From positions 1-41,634 of the IMG/VR virus record IMGVR_UViG_3300005436_000281: a stretch of DNA of 41,634 nt. One strand, 5' to 3'. Shown one piece after another: positions 12,383 through 32,161 of the stretch. Within the stretch, counting starts at the first letter, position 1, and every line of letters starts with the position of its first letter. The DNA comes from a virus. The position numbers and the translations under genes are program-made. The notes under the pieces are model-generated. The model searched no databases. It worked only from the letters and a program-made list of their open reading frames with translations, and had not been told where the DNA came from.

Positions 12383-12628
12383 GTGAGAATCGGTCGCGGT
12401 GATGAGAGCAGCCGAAAGGTCGCGGTGTTCGTTGCGATCTGCTCTTGCCTTCTGCTCGCGGGCTGCGCGCGCCGTCCGGTGCGTCCCAGCTTCGACTTGC
12501 CGGTCGCGTGTGTGCGGAAAGTCCTGCTCGTACGCTGCGAGCCGCAGTCGAAGCCGCTGCAGTGCGAGAAAATCGCGGTGAGTTACGCGCCCGGATGTGA
12601 GCAGCTCCGGGCTAGCTCGCTTCCTTGA
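12383..12628 (+). CDS. small lipoprotein, outer spanin candidate
   Basis: A GTG at 12383 gives 81 residues with a basic N-terminus, a hydrophobic stretch and the lipobox LLAGC (Cys at residue 28). A second GTG at 12425 has a better ribosome site (AAAGG, 5 bases away) but gives almost no positively charged n-region. The mature part is short and Cys/Pro/Arg-rich (RRPVRPSFDLP), as in Rz1-type spanin lipoproteins. It comes straight after the holin-like gene. No matching inner-membrane spanin lies beside it; the membrane-anchored helical protein at 19166 is a distant candidate. The 3' end overlaps the convergent gene by 17 bases. Confidence 0.6.
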   Translation: MRIGRGDESSRKVAVFVAICSCLLLAGCARRPVRPSFDLPVACVRKVLLVRCEPQSKPLQCEKIAVSYAPGCEQLRASSLP

Positions 12629-12995
12629 GCCGTTTCGCAGGCGGCAGGATCTCCCCCTCGGGAAGCTGGGGCTGCTCGTAGAGAAGTGATTTACGCCGGC
12701 GCTGCAGTTGCTCCCATCCGGCCTGCGCGACGTCAGGATCCGCCCCGACCAGGTCGAGCAGCACTTTGAAGATCGCCAGGTCGAACGGAGCGGTTTTTGA
12801 CGGCTCCTTCTCGACGCCCGCGACGCGGTAGGCGCACTGCGGGCAGAGGAAGAGCCGTTCGGATTTCGAGGTGCGGCGCTTGCCCATGCCGAGTGTCTGC
12901 GCGAAGCAGGTGAGGGCGACGGCTTTCTCGTTGGGCTGGATCTCGCGCAAGCAGCGCGAAGAGCAGCAGATTTGAAGCTGTCGGGGACGACCCAT
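12612..12995 (-). CDS. Cys-rich putative regulator with autoregulatory promoter
   Basis: The product has 127 residues, read leftward. The ATG at 12995 has GGAGG 6 bases upstream. The N-terminus is MGRPRQLQICCSSRC, followed by ALTCF and LFLCPQCAYRVA, so four or more Cys could bind one zinc ion in a ribbon. The C-terminal half is helical and charged and ends PPAKRLKEAS. No classical helix-turn-helix is evident. It is the only leftward gene here and its promoter is covered by two palindromic operators, so it is the leading candidate for a self-controlled repressor or switch protein. DNA binding by this product is inferred. Confidence 0.75.
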   Translation of the reverse strand: MGRPRQLQICCSSRCLREIQPNEKAVALTCFAQTLGMGKRRTSKSERLFLCPQCAYRVAGVEKEPSKTAPFDLAIFKVLLDLVGADPDVAQAGWEQLQRRRKSLLYEQPQLPEGEILPPAKRLKEAS

Positions 12996-14487: not shown

Positions 14488-15822
14488 ATGCCATCCAGCC
14501 TGTCGGCGCGCGTGACCGCGCGTCTTGTACAAGCGGAGCACTGCGAACCGAACCCGCACTACCAGGACGATCTGAGGATCGCCCGCTTGATCGTGGCGTA
14601 TGCCTCGAGCGGCGAAGCCGTTCTCTGTACACCGCACGAGCTGGCCAGCTACATGGTTCTGGGGCTGCACCCCGACAAAGTGTGGCCTGCGATTCAGGCA
14701 CGGAGACGCGCGATCGGTCTCATCAACGAAGAATTTTCGGGCGGGAAACTTCCGCCCAAAAAGCCGCCCCGACCGGCGGTGGCAGTTTCGCAGCAAAAGC
14801 TCTGGTTTGAAAAAACGAGCGGCGCGAGAGCCGTTAACTCCCGCGCCGATGACACGTTGCTTCGCGACAACACGATCAGTGTGCCTATGGCAGCACCGTC
14901 GATAGCCGCATTATTCCCCAATCCGCAGCAGCCGTCCAGCGCAAAAACGCGCGAGTTCTCGCTCCTCGAAATCAAGCGAATCGTGGGCTATTCAGGCGCT
15001 CCGCACTCGATCTGCGCCCTGACAATTTCCGCCCTGCGCGCTCGCGGAGAATGGCCAAACGAGGACGGGCCGGCAACGACCGTGCTCTCGGTTGCCATCC
15101 TCGGCATGATGCACGAGGGCGTTTGCTCCCGCAGAACGGTACAGCGGCGGATCCGGCGTGCCGTGCATCTCGGCTACTGGCGGCGGTTGCGCGATGCGAA
15201 CTCCTGGACGAACTGTCCGAAGTGTGGCACGAAGCGCGCCACGGCAAAGTGCGAGCAGTGCAAATACCGCGGTCGCAGCAAGGACGCGAACGGCAAGTGG
15301 ACCGGAGAATTCATGCGCGTGCCGGTCTACGAATTCGACCTGCAGAAGTTCCGCTCGGCTGATCGCTGCCGCGAGATCCGCCACTTCGACGCGCGGACCT
15401 ACGCCGAGTACAAAGCGGCGGCGAAACGAGGCGAGCATCCGAACGTCACCGAGATGCCGTCGCGCAAGCCGGCTCAGCCTGAGCCACACGCGCCAGCTCC
15501 TGCGCCTGCTGCGCCTGCGAAACAGCCGGCGGCCGAACACGCGCACCGCAACACCGCGCGTCCCGAGCCGAAGCCGCAACCGAAGCTCACCAAGCGGGAG
15601 TGCGCAAAGTTCGTCGCCGATGTGGCGCAGTTGATGCGAGGCACGACAACCTGGCGCGACACGCATGGAGGGCTGAGCGGAGATCTCGATCCCAGCGATC
15701 CGCGCTACCGGCCGAAGATGAATTTCCGCGAGGCGCTCAGAGAAGTGGCGCAAATCTGGAAGCGTGAGCAGGACGTCGTGCTCGAGGCGCTGAAGTTCTG
15801 GGGCTACCAGGTTCAGGAATAA
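14488..15822 (+). CDS. putative replication initiator with winged-helix and zinc ribbon
   Basis: The product has 444 residues; the ATG at 14488 has GAAGG 7 bases upstream. Residues ~155-235 look like a winged-helix DNA-binding domain (EFSLLEIKRIVGYSG, SRRTVQRRIRRAVHLGYW). Directly after comes a four-Cys ribbon (C243, C246, C255, C258: NCPKC and KCEQC). Then follow a Pro/Ala/Lys linker (325-365) and a C-terminal helical domain ending VLEALKFWGYQVQE. The order of DNA-binding domain, ribbon, linker and C-terminal helices, together with its place just after the iterons, suggests an origin-binding or helicase-loading protein. No polymerase or primase motif is seen. Confidence 0.7.
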   Translation: MPSSLSARVTARLVQAEHCEPNPHYQDDLRIARLIVAYASSGEAVLCTPHELASYMVLGLHPDKVWPAIQARRRAIGLINEEFSGGKLPPKKPPRPAVAVSQQKLWFEKTSGARAVNSRADDTLLRDNTISVPMAAPSIAALFPNPQQPSSAKTREFSLLEIKRIVGYSGAPHSICALTISALRARGEWPNEDGPATTVLSVAILGMMHEGVCSRRTVQRRIRRAVHLGYWRRLRDANSWTNCPKCGTKRATAKCEQCKYRGRSKDANGKWTGEFMRVPVYEFDLQKFRSADRCREIRHFDARTYAEYKAAAKRGEHPNVTEMPSRKPAQPEPHAPAPAPAAPAKQPAAEHAHRNTARPEPKPQPKLTKRECAKFVADVAQLMRGTTTWRDTHGGLSGDLDPSDPRYRPKMNFREALREVAQIWKREQDVVLEALKFWGYQVQE

Positions 15823-15874: not shown

Positions 15875-16087
15875 GTGGCTTCACGTCCCCAAGGCAGTCT
15901 AGCGCATTCCGTCCCTCGTTTCGACGCTCAATTCCTCGAACGTCGCATGCGCGAGCATCGAGAGTGGCAACAAGGAAGAGCCGCTCAACATGCGAGCGAG
16001 ATCATCTGCGAAGTTGCCGCGGCTCTTGAACTCGCCGAGCAAACGCGCGCGGGCAAAGGGCCGCACAAGATCGCGAGGCTCCGATGA
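15875..16087 (+). CDS. small helical protein, unknown
   Basis: The product has 70 residues from GTG at 15875, placed 9 bases after GGAGG (15861..15865). An ATG at 15868 lies too close to that site and opens another frame. The sequence is basic at both ends with a long helix (REHREWQQGRAAQHASEIIC, then EVAAALELAEQTR). No recognised family. It is the first member of a chain of tiny genes that overlap by 4 bases (ATGA here), so the whole set is probably one early operon. Confidence 0.65.
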   Translation: MASRPQGSLAHSVPRFDAQFLERRMREHREWQQGRAAQHASEIICEVAAALELAEQTRAGKGPHKIARLR

Positions 16088-16371
16088 AACTTCTTCCCAT
16101 GCCATTGCCAGCCGGGCGCTTCCCCACCAAGCCACAGACGGCTGGCGTCGAGGGCGGCGTGTGCGGAGCCTCTGGGGGAGGTTCCGCCGCCCTCGATCTC
16201 GATCTCCCTGATCCCTTTCGCTATCAGGAGCGCCGCTGGTGCGCCAACTGCGGCGGAGAGCAGACGTTTGTCCCGGTGGATCGCTTTCCCTTCGGATGGC
16301 GCGGCTACTGCATGGGATGCGAGGACGTGGTGTATGCGATGGACACGAGGACGGCGGAGGCCTGCGCATGA
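16084..16371 (+). CDS. zinc-ribbon protein, unknown
   Basis: The product has 95 residues. The ATG overlaps the previous stop by 4 bases. The first 45 residues are Pro/Gly-rich and poorly ordered. The C-terminal part carries RRWCANCGGEQTF and GYCMGCEDVVY, a CxxC-x19-CxxC four-Cys ribbon. Such mini-proteins bind zinc and often contact nucleic acids or host transcription proteins; no target can be assigned from sequence. Confidence 0.7.
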   Translation: MKLLPMPLPAGRFPTKPQTAGVEGGVCGASGGGSAALDLDLPDPFRYQERRWCANCGGEQTFVPVDRFPFGWRGYCMGCEDVVYAMDTRTAEACA

Positions 16372-16601
16372 CCTCCGAACTCTCGAACCTCTTGCTCTTC
16401 TTCACGGCGATCGCGAAGTTCCTGCTCATCACCGGAGTCGGTCTGGGAGGAGCGGTCGTCGTCTTGGCCGAGTGCTGCGGCTTTCGAGTCGTGGCACTCG
16501 GCATCGAAAAAGTTTCGGAGCGGGCAGTTAGCCACTGTACCAGCGTCGTTCTAAGCGACGGCAACAAGCCCGCTCCGGAAGTGATGGTGAGGGCCGCATG
16601 A
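16368..16601 (+). CDS. small membrane protein, unknown
   Basis: The product has 77 residues. It has a hydrophobic N-terminal half (LLLFFTAIAKFLLITGVGLG, continuing GAVVVLAECC), enough for one long or two short membrane helices. A polar C-terminal tail ending PEVMVRAA follows. There is no cleavable signal. Start and stop both overlap their neighbours by 4 bases. An inner-membrane role such as superinfection exclusion or a holin-type function is possible; nothing decides between them. Confidence 0.65.
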   Translation: MTSELSNLLLFFTAIAKFLLITGVGLGGAVVVLAECCGFRVVALGIEKVSERAVSHCTSVVLSDGNKPAPEVMVRAA

Positions 16602-16804
16602 GCGACGATTTGACGGCTTTGATCGAACGCACGAAGCAAGGCGAGAAATTCACGCTAGCTGAGATTCGTGACTACGTGTCGCCGCAGATTTCAGGGCCGC
16701 GCGCCATGGAGTTAACCATTCGCGTTCACAACAGCGTGCAGGACCTCAGCGAAACGGAGCGGATTTGTGCTCTCGTCTGCGCGCTGATGATGGAGCTCAT
16801 CTGA
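16598..16804 (+). CDS. small acidic helical protein, unknown
   Basis: The product has 68 residues and starts MSDDLTALIERTKQGEKFTL. It has helices in the N-terminal and C-terminal thirds (DLSETERICALVCALMMELI) and a central AEIRDYVSPQISG. Two lone Cys near the C-terminus are not arranged as a ribbon. The ATG overlaps the upstream stop by 4 bases and the stop shares one base with the next ATG. No family is recognised. Confidence 0.6.
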   Translation: MSDDLTALIERTKQGEKFTLAEIRDYVSPQISGPRAMELTIRVHNSVQDLSETERICALVCALMMELI

Positions 16805-17001
16805 TGACCGAGCACTTCACGCGCAACACCGTCTCGGCCGAATTCTGGTGCGGCAAATGCTCGAAGCGCACCCAGCACCGCATCGATGATCGGCGAAAAG
16901 GCCCGTGCCTCGAATGCATCGCCAAGCTCGAAGCCCAGCACACCGAACACGCTGACTCGCCGAAACCCCCGGCGGACGAGCAGCAACTTCTCTTCGTCTG
17001 A
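16804..17001 (+). CDS. zinc-ribbon protein, unknown
   Basis: The product has 65 residues. WCGKCSKRTQHRI and GPCLECIAKLEAQ form a CxxC-x15-CxxC ribbon in the first 40 residues. A His/Pro/Glu tail ends in QQLLFV. The start overlaps the previous stop by one base. The ribbon resembles that of the gene at 16084 in spacing and basic flanks, so the two may be distant duplicates. Confidence 0.7.
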   Translation: MTEHFTRNTVSAEFWCGKCSKRTQHRIDDRRKGPCLECIAKLEAQHTEHADSPKPPADEQQLLFV

Positions 17002-17013
17002 AAGGAACGTTTC

Positions 17014-18240
17014 ATGCGTCACTTCGTCTCGCTCGTCCTTCTGCTCTGCGCCTCTGCCTTCGCGCAGCTCCCACAAAACTTCTTCACGCTCTCGACCGCG
17101 AACACCGCCGACATGCCGAAAGTCCCCTATGGCACACTCGGCCATCCCGGATCGCTCGTGTGGACGGCCGTCGAAACCAGCCGCGGCTTCTACAACTGGA
17201 AGCAGATCGACGGCTTCGTCAAAAAAGCTCCGCACGATTCGAACGGCGTCGCCCAGATCGACCTCACGCTCGGCTACACGCCGGGATGGGCCGTCGCGAA
17301 TCAATCGTCGTGCCGCAAGCTTGCAAACGGATTGCTGGCCTGCACCGCTCCGCCCGACAACCTGCAGGACTGGACCGATTTTGTCTCCGCGCTGATCTCG
17401 CACTACAACGGCATCTCCGCGCCGCACGTGGCCTTCTATGAAATCTGGAATGAGGCGAACATGCTGCAGTTCTGGAGCGGCACCGTCTCGCAGCTGGCAA
17501 CGATGGGCGCGGCCGCGTACCCGATTCTGAAGTCCGATCCCTACTCGCAGGTGTTGACCCCGAGCGTGGTGTGGCAGGCAGGGAATGGACTCGCATTCAC
17601 GCAAAGCTATTTGTCGGCAGCGCCGGCGGATGCAGTTTCCTTCCACGCCTACACCTGCAAGACGAACCTGAAATCTTCCGGCGGCTGCGCGATGCCCGAA
17701 AGCGCCGGCTCTTCGAACGCTCCGCTGCAGACGATGATTCAAAGCTTCGCCCAGATCGCGAACAGCTTGCCGTTGTTCATCTCCGAAGGCGGCTGGGGCG
17801 TGCACGGGGTCACCGATCCGGACCTGCAGGCGGCGTGGGCGGCGCACTACCTCGTTCTCGGAGCATCGTTCGCGCAGTCAGCAAACCTGACGCATCTCGC
17901 ATGGTTTGAGTGGGGCGTGCCCACGATGGCGCTCTCCGGAAACATCGAAGCATCGAGTGGGCAACCGAACGCGGCCGGCATCGCCTACGGTGTCGTTCAG
18001 TCGTGGCTCAACTCAAATGCGATCAGCTCGTGCTCGGTCTCGGGGACGATCTGGAGCTGCGCGGCCGGGGCGAACCTGATCGTGTGGGACGCTTCGCAGT
18101 CGTGCTCAAACGGTGTATGTACAACGTCGCCTTACCTGGTGACGGGATTCAGCTCCTACCAGGACATCGCGGGAGAGAACCTGGTTGTCGAGAACGGAAG
18201 CGTTGATCTAGGGATCAAGCCGCTGCTGCTGGAGCCGTGA
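17014..18240 (+). CDS. secreted glycoside hydrolase, GH-A clan (GH39/GH5-like)
   Basis: The product has 408 residues; the ATG has AAAGGA upstream. A clean signal peptide ends ASAFA-QL (cut after 17). The fold is a (beta/alpha)8 barrel by motif order: GSLVWTAVETSRGFYNW (strand with the start-of-barrel Trp), IDLTLGYTPGW, then YEIWNEAN with the acid/base Glu147. VSFHAYTC (His211) and LFISEGGWG with the nucleophile Glu258 follow. The C-terminal ~100 residues are a Cys-containing beta appendage. It should cleave a host or environmental polysaccharide outside the cytoplasm. It sits alone among tiny early genes, which makes it a cargo gene rather than an obvious tail enzyme. The substrate is unknown. 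Confidence 0.85.
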   Translation: MRHFVSLVLLLCASAFAQLPQNFFTLSTANTADMPKVPYGTLGHPGSLVWTAVETSRGFYNWKQIDGFVKKAPHDSNGVAQIDLTLGYTPGWAVANQSSCRKLANGLLACTAPPDNLQDWTDFVSALISHYNGISAPHVAFYEIWNEANMLQFWSGTVSQLATMGAAAYPILKSDPYSQVLTPSVVWQAGNGLAFTQSYLSAAPADAVSFHAYTCKTNLKSSGGCAMPESAGSSNAPLQTMIQSFAQIANSLPLFISEGGWGVHGVTDPDLQAAWAAHYLVLGASFAQSANLTHLAWFEWGVPTMALSGNIEASSGQPNAAGIAYGVVQSWLNSNAISSCSVSGTIWSCAAGANLIVWDASQSCSNGVCTTSPYLVTGFSSYQDIAGENLVVENGSVDLGIKPLLLEP

Positions 18241-18253
18241 AGGGAGCTGTTTA

Positions 18254-18430
18254 GTGACCTGCCGTTACTGCGGTTTCGACATGAACCAAGGAGAGCTGGG
18301 GCCGCTCTACTGCGTCTCGCATCCGGAGTCCCGCGTGTGCCCGAACTGCTTTGGTTGCCAGCAGCAGGAGCCGATTTTGCCCGCTGTCCCGTTTAGCCGT
18401 CTGCAATTCCTTGTGGAGGACTTCACATGA
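18254..18430 (+). CDS. 58-residue multi-Cys zinc-finger protein
   Basis: It starts at GTG 18254, with AAGGGA about 10 bases upstream, and ends at a TGA that overlaps the next ATG. The sequence opens MTCRYCGFDMNQGELGPLYC, then continues with VCPNCFGCQQQEP. That makes seven Cys in 58 residues, enough for two zinc sites or one binuclear site. The tail (PVPFSRLQFLVEDFT) is hydrophobic. The tight coupling on the downstream side supports it being real. Function unknown. Confidence 0.6.
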   Translation: MTCRYCGFDMNQGELGPLYCVSHPESRVCPNCFGCQQQEPILPAVPFSRLQFLVEDFT

Positions 18431-18834
18431 AAATTAAGGTTTGCGATATCAGTGGCATGGGTGGTCGCGAGAATGGCGGCTACGAATGGGGCTGTCAAGT
18501 GATCTGCGCTCGCGCCCTGCGTTTCCTTCAGCAAGCGAAGGAGTCGGGAGAGTTCCCCGAATTCCACAGCTACGAGAACATCATCGGCGTCCTTTCGCCC
18601 GACAATGCGGCGGCCAAAAGGCTCGATGAGTACATCCTGCAGCACGAAAAATTGCGCGAGTTTGGCATGACCGGAGCGATGCACCAGTACGGCATCATCC
18701 ACGCGCTGAAAATTTTCGAACTGGGGCGCGAGGGTTACTTCAAGGCGCTCACAGAAGGCGAAGGCGGTCGAGGCCCGGAAGATTTTTACGAGTTCGAAGA
18801 GGACGATGCGTTCCCGGAAAGCGTCACCGCATGA
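18427..18834 (+). CDS. conserved-looking early protein, unknown
   Basis: The product has 135 residues. It starts MKIKVCDISGMGGRENGGYE, with a compact alpha/beta look (beta start, then helix ICARALRFLQQAKES). Middle: SYENIIGVLSPDNAAAKRLD. A strongly acidic C-terminus (FYEFEEDDAFPE) follows. It has no Cys ribbon or membrane span. Coupled by ATGA at both ends. The glycine/Tyr-rich start and acidic tail do not match a family I can name. Confidence 0.7.
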   Translation: MKIKVCDISGMGGRENGGYEWGCQVICARALRFLQQAKESGEFPEFHSYENIIGVLSPDNAAAKRLDEYILQHEKLREFGMTGAMHQYGIIHALKIFELGREGYFKALTEGEGGRGPEDFYEFEEDDAFPESVTA

Positions 18835-19169
18835 CCGCACGCGAACTGCTCGACGAGATCCTCTCCCAGGGGCCGCGTTCCGACGCATTGCCGCTCGAAT
18901 GCCGCCTGATCTTCCGCCAGTTGGCCGACAACCTGCACCAGGTCCGGCTGCGCAACGGCACGCTGCTGCGCGATCTCTCCGACGTCCGGGAACTGTTCAA
19001 GGAACTGGTCGAGGAGCTCGCGCCGGCGCCGAGGAACGGCAGCGTTGCCAGCCGATTCAATCTCGACTTCTGCCCCGACTGCGGCCACGTGCATGTCGAG
19101 GACAGCGAGTGCAGCTTTCCGATCGGCGGCGGAAGAGTGTGTCGCTGTGAGAGGCAGGTGCCGGCGTGA
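18831..19169 (+). CDS. helical protein with C-terminal zinc ribbon
   Basis: The product has 112 residues. The first ~65 are helical (MTARELLDEILSQG, FRQLADNLHQVRLRNGTLL, DVRELFKELVEELA). The last ~35 carry DFCPDCGHVHVEDSECSF and VCRCERQVPA, giving five Cys and two His in a compact ribbon. Coupled by 4-base overlaps on both sides. Helix plus ribbon suggests dimerisation plus zinc or nucleic-acid binding; this is inference. Confidence 0.7.
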   Translation: MTARELLDEILSQGPRSDALPLECRLIFRQLADNLHQVRLRNGTLLRDLSDVRELFKELVEELAPAPRNGSVASRFNLDFCPDCGHVHVEDSECSFPIGGGRVCRCERQVPA

Positions 19170-19363
19170 GCGCCTTCTGGTGGCTTCTGATTGTCGGCGT
19201 GTGGGGCATCCTCTGCTCTCTCTATGGAGACCGCGAAGGGAAGAAGCGCGGCTACGAGTTGGGCTGGAAGGCCTGCGAGGAGTGGATCGTGAAGGCGGAG
19301 TCGGACGTCGACCAGGAGCGACAGAAAATCTGGAAGGGAGAAGGGGAGCAGCGATGGCCGTGA
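19166..19363 (+). CDS. single-span membrane protein with coiled tail
   Basis: The product has 65 residues from GTG at 19166, overlapping the previous stop. Residues 3-20 (AFWWLLIVGVWGILCSLY) are a membrane helix. The rest is charged and helical (KRGYELGWKACEEWIVKAES, DVDQERQKIWKG), in the layout of a small inner-membrane spanin (short N-terminus, one span, periplasmic helix). It is far from the lysis group, so a spanin role is only a suggestion. The next gene starts inside its last codons. Confidence 0.65.
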   Translation: MSAFWWLLIVGVWGILCSLYGDREGKKRGYELGWKACEEWIVKAESDVDQERQKIWKGEGEQRWP

Positions 19364-19617
19364 ATTCTTGCACGTGTCCCTGTCACCACGCAAATGAGCG
19401 CTGCGAGCAGTGCTGCGACGGACGAGCCACAAAGCCAGGTTACCGCGAGGAGAACGACCAGGTGATCCTCACCATGAGCCGGGAAGATTATCAGCTGATG
19501 TTGATGTTGCTCGGCGCCGGAGCGGCCGGGGCACGGATTGTCTCCGGGAAAAAGGCTCTCGAATTTCTCAACCGCCTCAACCAGGGGAACCCGCACTACA
19601 CGCCATACCAGGTGTAA
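19354..19617 (+). CDS. Cys-cluster protein, unknown
   Basis: The product has 87 residues; ATG at 19354 has AAGGGGAGCA upstream. The N-terminus holds SCTCPCHHANERCEQCCDG, six Cys and two His within 20 residues, a dense metal-binding cluster. The C-terminal half is helical (SREDYQLMLMLLGAGAAGA, then IVSGKKALEFLNRLNQGN). It overlaps the preceding gene by 10 bases. The cluster could hold two zinc ions. No known family. Confidence 0.65.
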   Translation: MAVNSCTCPCHHANERCEQCCDGRATKPGYREENDQVILTMSREDYQLMLMLLGAGAAGARIVSGKKALEFLNRLNQGNPHYTPYQV

Positions 19618-19619
19618 TC

Positions 19620-19793
19620 GTGAGCCTCGGCAGCATCTGGGACGTTCCTATGGTCTGTGACACCTGCGGCAGCACGTTCCGGCTCGGCGACTGCGAAGCG
19701 AAAGACGACTACGAGCACGACGGTCCTTACGATGGAGAGATCGGTTGTCCCGTTCCTGACTGCGGCGGAACGATGCGTGAATTCGGCCGCTAG
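19620..19793 (+). CDS. 57-residue zinc-ribbon protein
   Basis: It starts at GTG 19620, three bases after the previous stop. MVCDTCGSTFRLGDC and CPVPDCGGTMREF form a ribbon-like CxxC plus Cx4C pair, joined by an acidic loop (KDDYEHDGPYDGE). This is the last gene of the rightward array; it ends 10 bases from the end of the convergent recombination operon. No terminator hairpin is visible in the gap. Confidence 0.6.
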   Translation: MSLGSIWDVPMVCDTCGSTFRLGDCEAKDDYEHDGPYDGEIGCPVPDCGGTMREFGR

Positions 19794-19803
19794 CCGCGGG
19801 GGA

Positions 19804-20514
19804 TCAGAACTCCACCTCGTCGGCATTCGGCCACTCGAGCACGTCGGCAACCCGCGACGGCTTTTTCGGCAGCCGCCGGATCTCTTCATCCACTTCATCG
19901 TTGAAGTGCAGCACCTCGGTGTTGACGGCGGTGATCAGATCGTCGTGGCGCTCGAATCGGCGCACGAACAGCTGCAGGTGCTCGGGCAGCCGCGGATCGA
20001 AGGAGACGAAGTCGCACCAGTCACGATCCGGGTTGCAGCTCAGCTCGGCGATCATCTGCGGATAGTGCTCCATCGGCACCACGCCGTCGAGCAGCCAGTT
20101 CAGGTGTGTGTTGGTGTTGGGGCATTTGATCTGCAACAGGCCTCGCTCTCCGACGAAGCCATCGGGAGAGCAGCCGAAGCGCGGAATCTGTGGATGCAAG
20201 ACGAAGCCCACGCGCTCGACCAGGACGTCGCGCTGCATCTCATAGGCGGCCCGGGCGAAGGGTTCCTGATCGAGTCCCCACTGCATCTCTTTCGAGACGT
20301 ACTGCGGGTAGGGCTGCCCGGTCAGGATTTCGCACATGATCTCCATGCGGTACTGGGCGCGGGCGGCGTTCTCGACTGTCTGTCCCTTTACTTTTTTGGT
20401 TCCGGCGACGTCCGAGAGGCGCGAGGCGGTGACGATGCCGCAACGGGCCGCAAACCACTCAGGGCTGCCCTGCTCGACGTTGAGGATGATGCCGGAGGTC
20501 AGGTGGGCGCTCAT
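19804..20514 (-). CDS. YqaJ/lambda-exonuclease-type recombination nuclease
   Basis: The product has 236 residues. The ATG at 20514 has AAAGGAGG 8 bases upstream and overlaps the upstream stop (ATGA). The fold motifs follow in order: SPEWFAARCGIVTASRL (substrate-entry Trp and Arg), MQWGLDQEPFARAAYE with Glu84, then GCSPDGF with Asp118, then LLQIKCPNTNTH with Lys130. In the family the residue two before that Lys is normally Glu; here it is Gln128. It should digest one strand of dsDNA ends to feed a single-strand annealing protein, presumably the gene at 20765. It lies at the end of the leftward operon. Confidence 0.85.
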   Translation of the reverse strand: MSAHLTSGIILNVEQGSPEWFAARCGIVTASRLSDVAGTKKVKGQTVENAARAQYRMEIMCEILTGQPYPQYVSKEMQWGLDQEPFARAAYEMQRDVLVERVGFVLHPQIPRFGCSPDGFVGERGLLQIKCPNTNTHLNWLLDGVVPMEHYPQMIAELSCNPDRDWCDFVSFDPRLPEHLQLFVRRFERHDDLITAVNTEVLHFNDEVDEEIRRLPKKPSRVADVLEWPNADEVEF

Positions 20515-20768
20515 TGCAGTGCCTCCTTTGCCCACACTGCGGCGAACTCTCTGGCGAATTCTTTCTGATCATCTTCGAGGGAGCGTAGCTCTTCGCAAAC
20601 TGAGCAAGTCACCCAGTTTTCGGCGAGCGCATCGTGGTCGATGGCGTCATCAAATTCGCCGACCTCGCGGATTCGCTGGCAGAGTTCGAGGTATCGCTCA
20701 GCGGCTTCGCGCCACTGGTCTGCGTTGAAATTGAAGTGCGAGAAACGTACGTAGATTTCTTCCGTCAT
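20511..20768 (-). CDS. small acidic protein between recombination genes
   Basis: The product has 85 residues, Glu/Asp-rich and helical (ADQWREAAERYLELCQRIRE; DQKEFAREFAAVWAKEAL). A central VTCSVCEEL CxxC is followed by no second pair. It overlaps the genes on both sides by 4 bases, so it is made together with the nuclease and the putative annealing protein. It could bridge or inhibit one of them. No family is recognised. Confidence 0.7.
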   Translation of the reverse strand: MTEEIYVRFSHFNFNADQWREAAERYLELCQRIREVGEFDDAIDHDALAENWVTCSVCEELRSLEDDQKEFAREFAAVWAKEALQ

Positions 20769-21502
20769 TGCAGTTCTCGCTTTCTCGCGTCCTTCGCCGA
20801 CATGAAGGCGTCGAGCGCGGCGCGGTCGTTGTTTTTCTTCGCCTCGTTGCCCGCGATGATGTAGCGGGATTTCAGTTCATCGAGGTCTTTTGCGTTGGCG
20901 ATCCCGAAGCAGAGATTCCTCACCCGGTCGGGATGCATGGGAGTGTAGGCCATGCGCGGCGCAATCGAGTTCGACGTGGCTTTGCCGTCCATCTCTTCGG
21001 CGGGCGTGGGCGCGTACCCGGCCATCACGACAACCCACGCGAGGACGTTGCGCAGAGCCTTCGCCTGTGCCCGCGTCTGCGCCATCGAGCGCAACTGGAA
21101 CAGCGGCTTGTCACTCCACTTCGATTCGTCGTCCATGCACATCGCTTGCGCGGCGCTGATGACCTGCCCATCAGCGCGAAGGGCTTCGGCGTGGCACTCG
21201 TAGCCCCGGACTCTTCCCTGCTCGACGTAGGATGTTGCTCTGGCCGCCACGGTGATGCCGTAGAAGCGGCCCAAGGTTTGCCAGTCTTCGAATTGCAAAA
21301 ACGTCTTGCCGTTGATGACGCATTTCAGGGGCTTGCGCTCGATCACGTCACGTAGAGCCTGTGCGGCCTTCGCGGCTTCCTGCAGCACGATCTCCGGCGC
21401 GCGCGGCATGGCGAGCTGGGCAGACTCGGGCGGACGAAGCGCCAGATGGTGGATATCTTCCGGCTGAATCTCGGGATTAAGCGGCTGCTGCACGGTTGCC
21501 AT
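20765..21502 (-). CDS. putative single-strand annealing/recombination partner
   Basis: The product has 245 residues. The ATG at 21502 has GGAAAGGA upstream; the frame is open further but reads as shadow. A helical N-terminus leads to GKTFLQFEDWQTLGRFYGIT, EQGRVRGYECHAEALR, and AQAMCMDDE, then LFQLRSMAQTRAQAKALRNV, and LAWVVVMAGYAPTPAEEM. The last block recurs in uncharacterised recombination-associated phage proteins. A Lys/Arg-rich C-terminus ends ARKRELQ. Its position in front of an exonuclease is where RecT, Bet or ERF proteins lie, so I infer an annealing role, but I do not recognise any of those families. Confidence 0.7.
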   Translation of the reverse strand: MATVQQPLNPEIQPEDIHHLALRPPESAQLAMPRAPEIVLQEAAKAAQALRDVIERKPLKCVINGKTFLQFEDWQTLGRFYGITVAARATSYVEQGRVRGYECHAEALRADGQVISAAQAMCMDDESKWSDKPLFQLRSMAQTRAQAKALRNVLAWVVVMAGYAPTPAEEMDGKATSNSIAPRMAYTPMHPDRVRNLCFGIANAKDLDELKSRYIIAGNEAKKNNDRAALDAFMSAKDARKRELQ

Positions 21503-21647
21503 AGAGGTTTTCCTTTCCAGTGAAGTTGGAATCGGAGAGCGCGACCAGCAAAACTTCGAGGGCCTTCTCCGGTTCGTTGAAGTTGAGGTGGACGATGGCG
21601 CGGACGATGGCATGGTGTTCGGCGGTGTAGCGCGGAGTCTCAGCCAC
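21477..21647 (-). CDS. 56-residue early protein, unknown
   Basis: It runs from GTG at 21647 to the TAA at 21477. The start lies inside the end of the upstream gene (8-base overlap) and the end lies 26 bases inside the next gene. The sequence VAETPRYTAEHHAIVRAIVH, then LNFNEPEKALEVLLVALSDS, reads like a compact helical protein. The overlap on both sides fits translational coupling. There is no known family, and the gene could still be a chance open frame. Confidence 0.5.
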   Translation of the reverse strand: MAETPRYTAEHHAIVRAIVHLNFNEPEKALEVLLVALSDSNFTGKENLYGNRAAAA

Positions 21648-21852
21648 GGAGCGCCTCGACTTTCCGGAAGTGGCGCAGGCAGAATTCCTGCTCCGACTTC
21701 AGATCGTGCACCGTGGCGCGTTCGTGGCAGTCGCAGTGCTCGTCCGACCAGAAGCAGGTGGTGAGGACGCGAGTGACGAGCTGGTCAATTGCCGCCGGGA
21801 ATACCTGTGGAAATTCCGGATGGGCGAGGACTGATAGAGTGGGTGCAGCCAT
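21640..21852 (-). CDS. first gene of the leftward operon, Cys/His-rich
   Basis: The product has 70 residues; the ATG at 21852 has GGAGG 8 bases upstream. The middle carries CFWSDEHCDCHERATVH and the end FCLRHFRK, giving four Cys and four His, a likely zinc site. It begins about 75 bases after the start expected from the strong leftward promoter at 21935..21963, so it should be the most highly made product of this operon. Function unknown. Confidence 0.7.
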   Translation of the reverse strand: MAAPTLSVLAHPEFPQVFPAAIDQLVTRVLTTCFWSDEHCDCHERATVHDLKSEQEFCLRHFRKVEALRG

Positions 21853-23693: not shown

Positions 23694-23955
23694 TCCCGCC
23701 ATCAACTACCTGAGCACGGCGCACGAGATCGCGCGCGCCAAACGTTTGGGCACCTACGGGCAGACCGATCGCTCGAAGCAGTACGAGGGCCGCTACTCGC
23801 CCGAGGCGCTGCTCAAGAGCGATAATCACCTCTGGAAAAAACTGCGCGAGATGGAGCAGCGGAAGTTCCGCCGGCAAATCTTGATCGTGTTGTTGACCGC
23901 CGCGCTGGCACGCGCACCGGAGATCTGGCACTGGGTTTCGTGGTTCATGCGATGA
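23686..23955 (+). CDS. small tail-anchored membrane protein
   Basis: The product has 89 residues. A soluble, basic N-terminal ~60 residues (TAHEIARAKRLGTYGQT, EALLKSDNHLWKKLREMEQR) is followed by a C-terminal hydrophobic segment (ILIVLLTAALARAPEIWHWV) that could anchor it in the inner membrane. It starts inside the end of the preceding gene and its stop overlaps the recombinase start (ATGA). No family is recognised. Confidence 0.6.
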   Translation: MTDPAINYLSTAHEIARAKRLGTYGQTDRSKQYEGRYSPEALLKSDNHLWKKLREMEQRKFRRQILIVLLTAALARAPEIWHWVSWFMR

Positions 23956-24479
23956 GGCTCGCACTCTACGCCCGCGTCTCGAAGCTTCACGGTCACCAGG
24001 ATCCGGAGGTGCAACTGCGCGAGCTGCGCGAGTGGGCCGCGAAGAACGGGCACCAGGTTGTCTTCGAATACGTGGACCACGGCGTCTCCGGCGCGAAGAA
24101 GTCACGCCCCCAGCTCGACAAGCTGATGCGCGATGCGACGAAGGGGCTGCGGGACATTGACGCAGTTCTCGTGTGGCGCCTCGATCGCTTCGGCCGATCG
24201 CTGCAGCACCTGCAGAATGCGATCGCGGAGCTGAAGGCAGCGAACGTTTCCTTCATCAGCATGAAGGAAGGCTTTGACCTGACGACGCCGATGGGGAAAG
24301 CGTTCTTCGGGATGCTGGGCGTCTTCGCCGAGTTTGAACGCGACGTGATCGCCGAGCGGATCCGCGCCGGCCTCAAAAATGCCAAGGCGAAGGGCCACCT
24401 GCCCGGCCGCAAGATCGACCCGAAGCGCGGGGCGAGCCGGACGACGGTCTGGCGCGAGAAGCAGCGGAAATCGGCCTAA
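23952..24479 (+). CDS. small serine recombinase (resolvase/invertase family), truncated HTH
   Basis: The product has 175 residues from the ATG at 23952. The catalytic domain is intact: LYARVS with nucleophile Ser10 and Arg8, GVSGAKKSRPQLDKLM, VWRLDRFGRS with Arg76, Asp78, Arg79 and Arg82, and EFERDVIAERIRAGL on the long E helix. After PGRKID (~156) only 19 residues remain, against about 40 in a usual resolvase. ASRTTVWRE still looks like a recognition helix, but the preceding HTH helices are missing. It cuts and rejoins DNA through Ser10. Roles could be resolving genome dimers, inversion or integration. A dyad directly downstream is a candidate target. Confidence 0.85.
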   Translation: MRLALYARVSKLHGHQDPEVQLRELREWAAKNGHQVVFEYVDHGVSGAKKSRPQLDKLMRDATKGLRDIDAVLVWRLDRFGRSLQHLQNAIAELKAANVSFISMKEGFDLTTPMGKAFFGMLGVFAEFERDVIAERIRAGLKNAKAKGHLPGRKIDPKRGASRTTVWREKQRKSA

Positions 24480-24751: not shown

Positions 24752-25216
24752 ATGGCACCAAAAAAAGGCGGCGACACCCGAGCTCAGGCGGCGGCAAACG
24801 GGAAGGCGGTCGGGCGCCCGAAGAAGCAGACGATCGTAGTCCCCGCCGGCACGACCGCAACCGTCGCCACGGAGATCCTCGCGATGAACGGAGCGCCGAA
24901 TCACAAGCGCCGTTGCGAGTGCGAGATCTGTGCCGGCCGGCTGAAAGAAAAGTGTGAGTGCAAAACGCTCGACGACGGGGATGGCGGCAAGGTCCAAGTC
25001 GAGTGCGTGTTCTGTCACACGCGCAAGGATCACAAGATTTGCCGCTGCCAGGTCTGCGCCTGGTGGGAGCTGCTCCGAGCCACCGATCGACGAATCGTTC
25101 TCGACTCGAGGAAGTACCTCACCGACAAGAGCGAAGGCAAAGCTGTGCAACCGGTGATCACGTCGCAGGACAAGCCGGCCGAAATCAATGTCACCATCCG
25201 TCGCGTCGGCGCTTGA
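24752..25216 (+). CDS. putative small terminase subunit, Cys-rich
   Basis: The product has 154 residues. The basic N-terminus has an AT-hook-like VGRPKKQT (20-27). Residues 55-102 contain ten Cys (CECEIC, KCEC, CVFC, ICRCQVC), enough for two zinc sites. The C-terminal part ends EINVTIRRVGA, a strand typical of terminase small subunits. It overlaps the large terminase by 29 bases, which supports this assignment; it would recognise packaging DNA and regulate the motor. No ribosome site precedes the ATG; a hairpin does. A zinc-cluster small terminase is unusual, so the role is inferred from position. Confidence 0.65.
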   Translation: MAPKKGGDTRAQAAANGKAVGRPKKQTIVVPAGTTATVATEILAMNGAPNHKRRCECEICAGRLKEKCECKTLDDGDGGKVQVECVFCHTRKDHKICRCQVCAWWELLRATDRRIVLDSRKYLTDKSEGKAVQPVITSQDKPAEINVTIRRVGA

Positions 25217-29941: not shown

Positions 29942-32161
29942 GTGGGCTCGCTTCTTCAGGCAGTGCGCGGCCTCTTAGGGGGCGGCGCGTCGAAGAGTGA
30001 TACACCGCAGGGCGGAGGAAACTCCGGCGGCTCCGGTACCGGGAGCGGCGTGGACGAAGACAAGACTCTTCAGTTCACCCGCGACAAGTGGAGCGACCGG
30101 AAGAACGCCTTCGTGGTGTACCACCAGTCGATCTGGCAGGCGCTGCTGTTCTACGCCAACCAGAGCTGGATCGACTGGGACGACGCGCGCAAGGTGTGGC
30201 AGCCGCAGCAACCCACTGACGAGTGGGTGCCGCGGCCGCGCATCAACCGCTTTGCGCCGGCGATGGATTCGGTGGCCTCGAACTTTTTCCAGCTGCCGCC
30301 GATCGAGGCCGCGCCGAAAGCCGAGAAGCAATCCGATCCGCAGTCGCACGCGATCGCAGACATCTGTTCGGACCTGGTCGCCTATGTCATTCAGAAAGAT
30401 GGCCTGGAACATCAGCAGGGCGAGGAAGAAGATAAAGTTGGCCTGGCTGCTCAGCTGTACGTTCTTGAAGGCACGATTTTCTCGCATCTGCGCGTCCGCA
30501 AGAAATCGCTGGGCACGCAGCCGGCGCAAGCCATGCAGCCCGCCTGGGGCGCTCAGTGCGAGAGCTGCGATAATTACACGAGCGTTCCCGCCACTGGGGA
30601 GAAGCCGCAATTCTGCACCCAGTGTGGAGCTCCTCTCACCATCACCGACACCGAAAGCCTCCAGCCCCAGCTCGGAGACGACGGACAGCCGCAGCAGAAC
30701 GAGATCCTCGAGTACGAAGTCGAGTGCGAGATCGGCAATGCCCTCTACGCCTTCCCGCGCCCCGGTTCCACCTCGCTCGCCGATTCTCAGGACCTGCTCT
30801 GGGCGCAGCGGCGCACCCTCGACGAGATCTGGTTCCGCTGGAACTTCGAAGCCGAGCCCGATTCCGAGTGGCCCGACGGATACTCCGTCACCTACGAACA
30901 CGCGCTGAACTTCTGGTACACCGGCTACTCGTCGACGACGCTCCAGGTCAAAGACTCCTGCATGGTTCTCGAAGAGTACGTCGCGCCAGGCAAGGTGAAG
31001 GATTTCCCGGAAGGCTTTCACAACGTGGTGATCAACCAGAGGCAGGCCTTCGTCGAGAAGTGGGACTTCCCCGAGCATCCGCTGACGATGGGAAAGTACC
31101 TCACCTTCCCCACTTTGTTTTTCGGCCGAGCGATCTCGTTCGACTGCGTCGAGATCCAGCGCGAAGACAACGCCTACGAGTCACTGAAAAAGCTGCATGG
31201 CATGGTCTCGGCCGTCGATCCCTGGGTGGTCGACGCGGATTCGCTCGTCACCGACATCACCGGGCGCGCCGACAAGATCATCAAGTACAAGCGGACCTCG
31301 CCGGACGTCGAGCCGCCGCACCGCGCCGGGCACGGATCTCTCGATGAAGGAATTTACAAGCAAGGCGAGATCCTGCGCAGCGAGTACCAGTCGATCTCGG
31401 GCGCGACCAAAGCCTTCAAGGGCGAAGCCGAATATGCAGGAGAGCCCGCCGCGGCCGCGAAACTTCGAAGAGACCAGGCCGAGCTGCAATTCGGAAAGCC
31501 GGCGGCGAACTGGCGTAACTTCTGGCGCGAGACCCTGCGCAAATACGTGAAGTTTTTGCAGAAGTACTACTCGGTCGAGCAACTGGCGAAGATCCTCGGC
31601 TCCGATCGCATAGAGGACATCCGCTCGTTCAAGGGCGCGGACCTCGACAACACCATCGACTTCCTGGCCGCGAACACTGGCCTGCCCCGCACCAAGACCG
31701 AAATCAAAGAGGAGTTGACCGAGCTCGAGCAGATGGGCGCGCTCGACGTCAACGATCCCTCGGTGCGGCAGCGGATCTACGAAGTCTCGGGTGAAACCGG
31801 CATGCTCGAATCGTTCAACGAAGACGCGACCAACGCGCGCCTCGAGAACGAAGCATTCAAGACCGGCAAGGGTGATCCCTCGCTGCCAGGCCAGTACGTT
31901 CCGCCGCAGATCAAGCCCATGCCTGGCATCGAGGACCTGGCGGTGCATCTCTACTTCCACAAGAAGCAGGCGAAGACGCGGGATTTCAAACGCTGGAACC
32001 CTGCGGCGCAGCAAGCCTTGTTCGCGCACATCATGGAAACGATCCAGGCACTCGCCGTCATTCAGGGACCGCCTCCGGCCGATCCCGCAGCACCCAAACC
32101 ACCCGCGATGCCACCGCAGCCTGGCGCGGCGCCAGGAGCAATGCCGGCACCCGCCGCGTAA
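29942..32161 (+). CDS. portal protein, P22-size, with zinc-ribbon insertion
   Basis: The product has 739 residues from GTG at 29942. The start region is Gly-rich. The body has WVPRPRINRFAPAMDSVASN, a conserved early portal block, and FWYTGYSSTTLQVKDSCMV. Further on come HPLTMGKYLTFPTLFFGRAI and a C-terminal barrel-like helical region with AAAAKLRRDQAELQFGK. Length and order match the P22-type portal (about 725). Unusual is a four-Cys ribbon at 206-228 (CESC ... CTQC, spacing 15). The dodecameric ring would be the DNA channel and connect to the tail adaptor at 38211. The C-terminus is Pro/Ala-rich. Confidence 0.9.
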   Translation: MGSLLQAVRGLLGGGASKSDTPQGGGNSGGSGTGSGVDEDKTLQFTRDKWSDRKNAFVVYHQSIWQALLFYANQSWIDWDDARKVWQPQQPTDEWVPRPRINRFAPAMDSVASNFFQLPPIEAAPKAEKQSDPQSHAIADICSDLVAYVIQKDGLEHQQGEEEDKVGLAAQLYVLEGTIFSHLRVRKKSLGTQPAQAMQPAWGAQCESCDNYTSVPATGEKPQFCTQCGAPLTITDTESLQPQLGDDGQPQQNEILEYEVECEIGNALYAFPRPGSTSLADSQDLLWAQRRTLDEIWFRWNFEAEPDSEWPDGYSVTYEHALNFWYTGYSSTTLQVKDSCMVLEEYVAPGKVKDFPEGFHNVVINQRQAFVEKWDFPEHPLTMGKYLTFPTLFFGRAISFDCVEIQREDNAYESLKKLHGMVSAVDPWVVDADSLVTDITGRADKIIKYKRTSPDVEPPHRAGHGSLDEGIYKQGEILRSEYQSISGATKAFKGEAEYAGEPAAAAKLRRDQAELQFGKPAANWRNFWRETLRKYVKFLQKYYSVEQLAKILGSDRIEDIRSFKGADLDNTIDFLAANTGLPRTKTEIKEELTELEQMGALDVNDPSVRQRIYEVSGETGMLESFNEDATNARLENEAFKTGKGDPSLPGQYVPPQIKPMPGIEDLAVHLYFHKKQAKTRDFKRWNPAAQQALFAHIMETIQALAVIQGPPPADPAAPKPPAMPPQPGAAPGAMPAPAA

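Follow-up and report, generated by a model that had tools for sequence, protein, structure and literature searches.

A C-terminal QxxLF peptide conserved on a phage-borne zinc ribbon suggests docking on the host beta sliding clamp

We propose that gene 16804 of a 41,634-nucleotide virus record (the window, i.e., the whole stretch of DNA that was analyzed) encodes a zinc adaptor that docks on the host beta sliding clamp and acts on the host replisome, a reading to which we give a probability of about 60%. A soil phage would thus probably dock an adaptor of its own onto the replication machine of its host. The case is built from sequence: the ribbon, the linker, the conserved motif and its specificity, the match of that motif to the class found in the host, the synteny of the locus and the absence of the replicase genes that were sought. 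The window (41.6 kb, ~62% GC) contains genes for a terminase (25188), a P22-like portal (29942) and a putative capsid protein (34860), and a near-identity search found no match for it among isolated phages. Genes are designated here by their first coordinate, and gene 16804 has the following features.

16804 to 17001, plus strand: 65-residue predicted zinc ribbon with a C-terminal motif of the clamp-binding type; core gene.
16849 to 16917, plus strand: zinc knuckles, C16-x2-C19 ... C35-x2-C38, in which none of the four Cys varies across the 22-row alignment.
16981 to 16995, plus strand: QQLLF, putative beta-clamp-binding motif, residues 60 to 64.

The protein is laid out as a C4 zinc ribbon with CxxC-x15-CxxC knuckle spacing, a variable linker and the C-terminal QxxLF. 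Its invariant core also comprises H25, R26, D28, R31 and the sequence GPCL; two distant members of the set of 38 distinct homologues lack the first Cys pair and keep the tail. AlphaFold2, run on the 22-row alignment, predicted a three-strand ribbon (strands 9-16, 21-28 and 31-35) plus a helix, with a pLDDT of about 90 for residues 11 to 45 and low to moderate confidence for the N terminus and for the linker and tail. With two CxxC knuckles and a modeled three-strand sheet, the protein has the features of a zinc ribbon, and metal binding is predicted. Searches of Pfam, PHROGs, NCBIfam and PADLOC gave nothing beyond weak scores; there was no DksA/TraR or YacG match in Pfam, and the NCBIfam hits of the family were weak and scattered. 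Solved-structure searches with the ribbon returned only weak matches to ribosomal zinc proteins of the eL42/L33 type, which were set aside.

Scans of IMG/VR with gene 16804 identified 23 and then 40 loci, and the gene was also found on two contigs of species-representative genomes, both Acidobacteriota MAGs. Two of 396 Acidobacteriota genomes scanned gave a match: a weak hit, and one of the MAGs already found. Gene 16804 is thus in essence carried by phages, and these most likely infect Acidobacteriota. Streptomyces phages were discarded as relatives (E = 1 in tblastn with 16804; the one match inspected was antisense to its gene).

The C-terminal sequence Q-x-x-L-[FW] is present in 37 of the 38 homologues, versus 0.9% per shuffled tail. 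The lone exception reads QMKLIP; in two sequence types, W takes the place of F at position 5. Wherever the motif occurs it is located 0 to 10 residues from the C terminus, and the 16804 tail lies outside the confident fold of the AlphaFold2 model, suggesting that the peptide is carried by a flexible segment. Linker length and sequence vary in the 22-row alignment, and the Q and L of the motif are invariant. The codons of the motif vary synonymously (CAG or CAA for Gln, all six codons for Leu, TTC or TTT for Phe) while its two middle residues vary freely, which argues for selection on the protein. Given the variation of the Leu and Phe codons and of the middle positions, we rejected overlap with a Shine-Dalgarno sequence as the cause of tail conservation.

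The bacterial clamp-binding motif is defined as Q-aliphatic-x-[LM]-[FL] or a hexamer form (PMC11139829), with QxxL(x)F as a looser version (PMC5371812). QQLLF agrees with the looser version; its Gln at position 2 departs from the strict consensus, which is found in few homologues (QLGLF, QIDLF, QISLF, QMGLF and QANLF). We therefore compared the tail with the motifs of the presumed hosts. DnaE has QHGLF ~242 residues from the C terminus in most of the acidobacterial genomes read and QPGLF in one, a few fragments or misframed loci having given nothing usable. This placement of QHGLF corresponds to that of the internal motif of Escherichia coli DnaE. Because host DnaE has His at position 2, the objection raised by a nonaliphatic residue there is weakened, and the 16804 tail is of the same motif class as QHGLF. 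In acidobacterial DinB the motif is mostly QINLL, QISLL or QIDLL, and in MutS it is QLTIF or QLTLF.

A scan limited to DnaN, Pol A, Pol III alpha and DnaB found no match in 21 related phage records including the window, whereas the control genomes gave matches; the phage records are 38 to 45 kb long and may be fragments.

The tail is specific to few proteins. We scanned all ORFs of the related loci for it, without preselecting families, and just two of the 74 ORF families were tailed, the ribbon (35/36) and a second one, F2 (19/30, in a mixed cluster); the remaining families reached 17% at most and were nearly all at zero. F2 proteins have ~95 residues and are rich in Cys and His, with a core (CDWK ... 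GTCDxPIC ... KHLCPxHQ) unrelated to the ribbon, and their gene is just downstream of the ribbon gene in over half of the relatives. Their tails read QRSLF, QQSLF, QLALF and similar, but also QLSLL, QMSLL and the hexamer QMRLGI, and match the published pentamer and hexamer forms (PMC11139829; QxxL(x)F in PMC5371812). A wider scan found the tail on close F2 homologues and not on 43 distinct others, most of them more distant.

F2 was sought in the window and not found. A glycosidase gene occupies its expected place: 17014-18240, between the ribbon gene and 18254, encodes a secreted protein resembling glycosyl hydrolase family 39. A search for viral relatives of this gene found none, and homologues up to 44% identical are present in 38 of 101 Acidobacteriota genomes. 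It is probably host-derived cargo placed where relatives have F2.

Similar ends were noticed on a few other ORFs. A third Cys protein (CLSCYQQLPRALKVSLW...), present in two relatives (L011:6879-7121 and L018:5379-5777), ends in QQQLF, possibly another clamp-docking tail. A 377-residue ORF with the look of a tyrosine integrase has QGSLFS at its end (L048:12310-13443, minus strand), and a 116-residue ORF downstream of the ribbon and F2 has both QRELF and QKELF near its end (L024:1599-1949).

The genes around 16804 are as follows.

14488 to 15822, plus strand: multidomain protein with a zinc-ribbon insert, heading the rightward gene run; related sequence in 17 loci.
19804 to 20535, minus strand: YqaJ/RecE-like exonuclease, transcribed toward the gene run (PF09588, 1e-22; phrog_149, 4e-37).
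20765 to 21502, minus strand: match to phrog_19042, a family of unknown function; conserved alongside the exonuclease, judged by its position in relatives.

A 14488-like gene is conserved upstream of the ribbon gene in relatives, and the converging exonuclease is likewise a conserved neighbor. Their adjacency points to a role of the ribbon in replication or recombination. The 14488 model was helix-rich and of low confidence, with nonsignificant winged-helix matches; it was too poor to name the protein, which at most weakly resembles a replication initiator or organizer. The product of 20765 would be annealase-like only by position. A serine recombinase/resolvase gene (23940-24479; PF00239), also conserved in relatives, separates the terminase gene from the recombination genes.

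The ribbon had been predicted as one of six tiny CxxC genes, at 16084, 16804, 18254, 18831, 19354 and 19620, chained by 4-base overlaps. All six ORFs are present, and in each the reading frame scores best of the six possible frames by codon usage. The claimed enrichment in Cys held as well: the small proteins of the window contain 17 CxxC pairs versus 3.8 (maximum, 11) in 2,000 within-protein shuffles, i.e., ~4.5-fold, and 10 of the 17 fall in the six named genes. The chaining proved partial. The overlap is 4 bases at 16084 and 18831, 1 base at 16804 and 10 bases at 19354; a short gap precedes each of 18254 and 19620, and the 1.2-kb glycosidase gene splits the set. The other five genes, and two Cys-rich genes elsewhere in the window, are listed below.

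12612 to 12995, minus strand: four-Cys small protein, with the four Cys in 11/11 homologues and a conserved C-terminal tail, EILPPxKRLxxAS.
16084 to 16371, plus strand: small protein of a separate family, CxxC...CxxC, with the four Cys in 11/11 homologues.
18254 to 18430, plus strand: six-Cys ORF with a coding-like frame and no detectable relatives.
18831 to 19169, plus strand: small protein of a separate family, CxxCxHxH...C...CxC, with Cys and His kept in relatives.
19354 to 19617, plus strand: conserved core (from YREE) with a nonconserved, Cys-rich N-terminal extension.
19620 to 19793, plus strand: five-Cys small protein, with the five Cys in 5/5 homologues.
21640 to 21852, minus strand: Cys/His small protein, with C33, C42, C58 and H61 in 12/12 homologues.

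The Cys residues are thus conserved for 16084, 16804, 18831 (C81, C84, H86, C94, C104 and C106 in 22/22 homologues, H88 in 21/22) and 19620, and also for the outlying 12612 (C10, C15, C51 and C54 in 11/11) and 21640. No such conservation was seen for 19354, and a search for relatives of 18254 found none. Since the relatives of 19354 begin at MSYREE, its Cys cluster belongs to an N-terminal extension specific to the window, and we rejected it as a zinc protein. The idea of a single family of zinc modules was not borne out: clustering by sequence keeps the ribbon, 16084, 18831 and F2 apart, as several families. As to action on host proteins, the original prediction now has one candidate, 16804, whose putative target is the host beta clamp. 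The suggested anti-defense role found no support: PADLOC, whose library holds defense and not anti-defense models, assigned no family to 10 proteins of the window.

Other Cys-rich or tailed features were observed in the window. In the 12612 family, EILPPxKRLxxAS comes after a variable stretch and is possibly another docking peptide. The portal (29942-32161) has an insert with two CxxC pairs (CESCDNYTSVPATGEKPQFCTQCGAPL), and a ten-Cys protein with relatives in five loci (24752-25216) is encoded directly upstream of the large terminase, the usual position of the small terminase.

In the mechanism that we favor, the 16804 ribbon would present a conserved surface, next to which a flexible linker would allow the QxxLF peptide to plug into the hydrophobic pocket of host DnaN; F2, where relatives have it, would dock on the clamp likewise. 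Through the adaptors, a phage or host replication or recombination partner, bound by the ribbon, would be tethered to clamp-loaded DNA. Clamp binding, the identity of the ribbon's partner and recruitment rather than blockade are the parts of this scheme that we infer.

The conservation of the motif in 37 of 38 homologues would fit equally well with a host-shutoff factor whose tail fills the DnaN pocket, displaces host polymerases and stops host replication. There are precedents for such an effect in the toxins SocB and RipA, which act at the hydrophobic pocket of the clamp (PMC12795458), and in phage Twort gp168, which inhibits clamp loading (PMC11139829). However, the phages themselves seem to rely on the host clamp, the ribbon is conserved to the same degree as the tail although a pure plug could do without it, and most members do not have the high-affinity form QL[SD]LF; shutoff is the main rival, but unlikely in our view. 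Recruitment seems somewhat likelier than blockade in view of the conservation of the ribbon, the mostly nonconsensus position 2 and the dependence on the host replisome.

In a third scheme, replication-coupled transcription, the ribbon would contact RNA polymerase and the tail would tie that enzyme to the clamp, as for T4 gp33/gp55. A small protein with a tethered C-terminal clamp peptide does resemble gp33 (PMC2988020), and small phage zinc proteins acting on RNA polymerase are known, as for TraR/Orf73 (PMC9239242), but 16804 shows no similarity to DksA/TraR or other RNA polymerase binders beyond weak scattered hits, and we regard this scheme as highly improbable. Another reading seems only slightly less improbable: two unrelated zinc adaptors, with genes near each other, would have convergently gained host-clamp docking peptides by which transcription or recombination of the phage is tied to the sliding clamp, as a host-clamp counterpart of the T4 gp33/gp55 scheme. 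Finally, the deviation at position 2 might mean that the target of the tail is not DnaN, or that the tail belongs structurally to the ribbon. These phages alone have the same tail, with its QLSLL, QMSLL and hexamer forms, on an unrelated core, and it matches the motif class of host DnaE; we hold this last explanation to be very doubtful.

If clamp docking by 16804 is correct, it provides a functional hypothesis for a phage gene family without Pfam, PHROG or NCBIfam assignment, with two unrelated phage proteins converging on one host hub. A vague cluster of small Cys-rich ORFs would become a simple question of peptide binding, and phage clamp binders could be found by C-terminal QxxLF sequences matched to the DnaE motif of the host. 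The clamp-binding motif itself is familiar; in the literature that could be searched, no description of a phage zinc ribbon with such a motif was found, and a search there for acidobacterial phage zinc ribbons gave nothing relevant.

Several known systems share parts of this arrangement. YabA, a controller of replication initiation in Bacillus subtilis, is also a small zinc protein that bridges DnaN to a replication protein (PMC4705661). It differs by its N-terminal coiled-coil tetramer, its HCCC zinc site and its lack of a canonical DnaN pentapeptide, whereas 16804 has a C4 ribbon first and a peptide of canonical type at the C terminus. Neither the leucine zipper/coiled coil nor the HxC-x11-CxxC site of YabA is present in 16804, whose ribbon begins within 15 residues with no N-terminal helix in the model. 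Twort gp168 is likewise a phage protein that acts on the host clamp, but it works in the DNA channel and blocks loading, without a pocket peptide and ribbon. SocB and RipA share the pocket as site of action and differ as members of chromosomal toxin-antitoxin systems. The T4 proteins gp33 and gp55 are phage adaptors with tethered C-terminal clamp-binding peptides, but the clamp on which they dock is encoded by the phage itself, and their partner is RNA polymerase. Lastly, the bacterial clamp-binding proteins DnaE (internal motif), DinB, MutS, Pol II and Hda similarly expose Q-x-x-[LM]-[FL] on a flexible terminus or loop; the 16804 family differs from them in being phage-encoded and 60 to 75 residues long, with a zinc ribbon in place of the enzyme domain.
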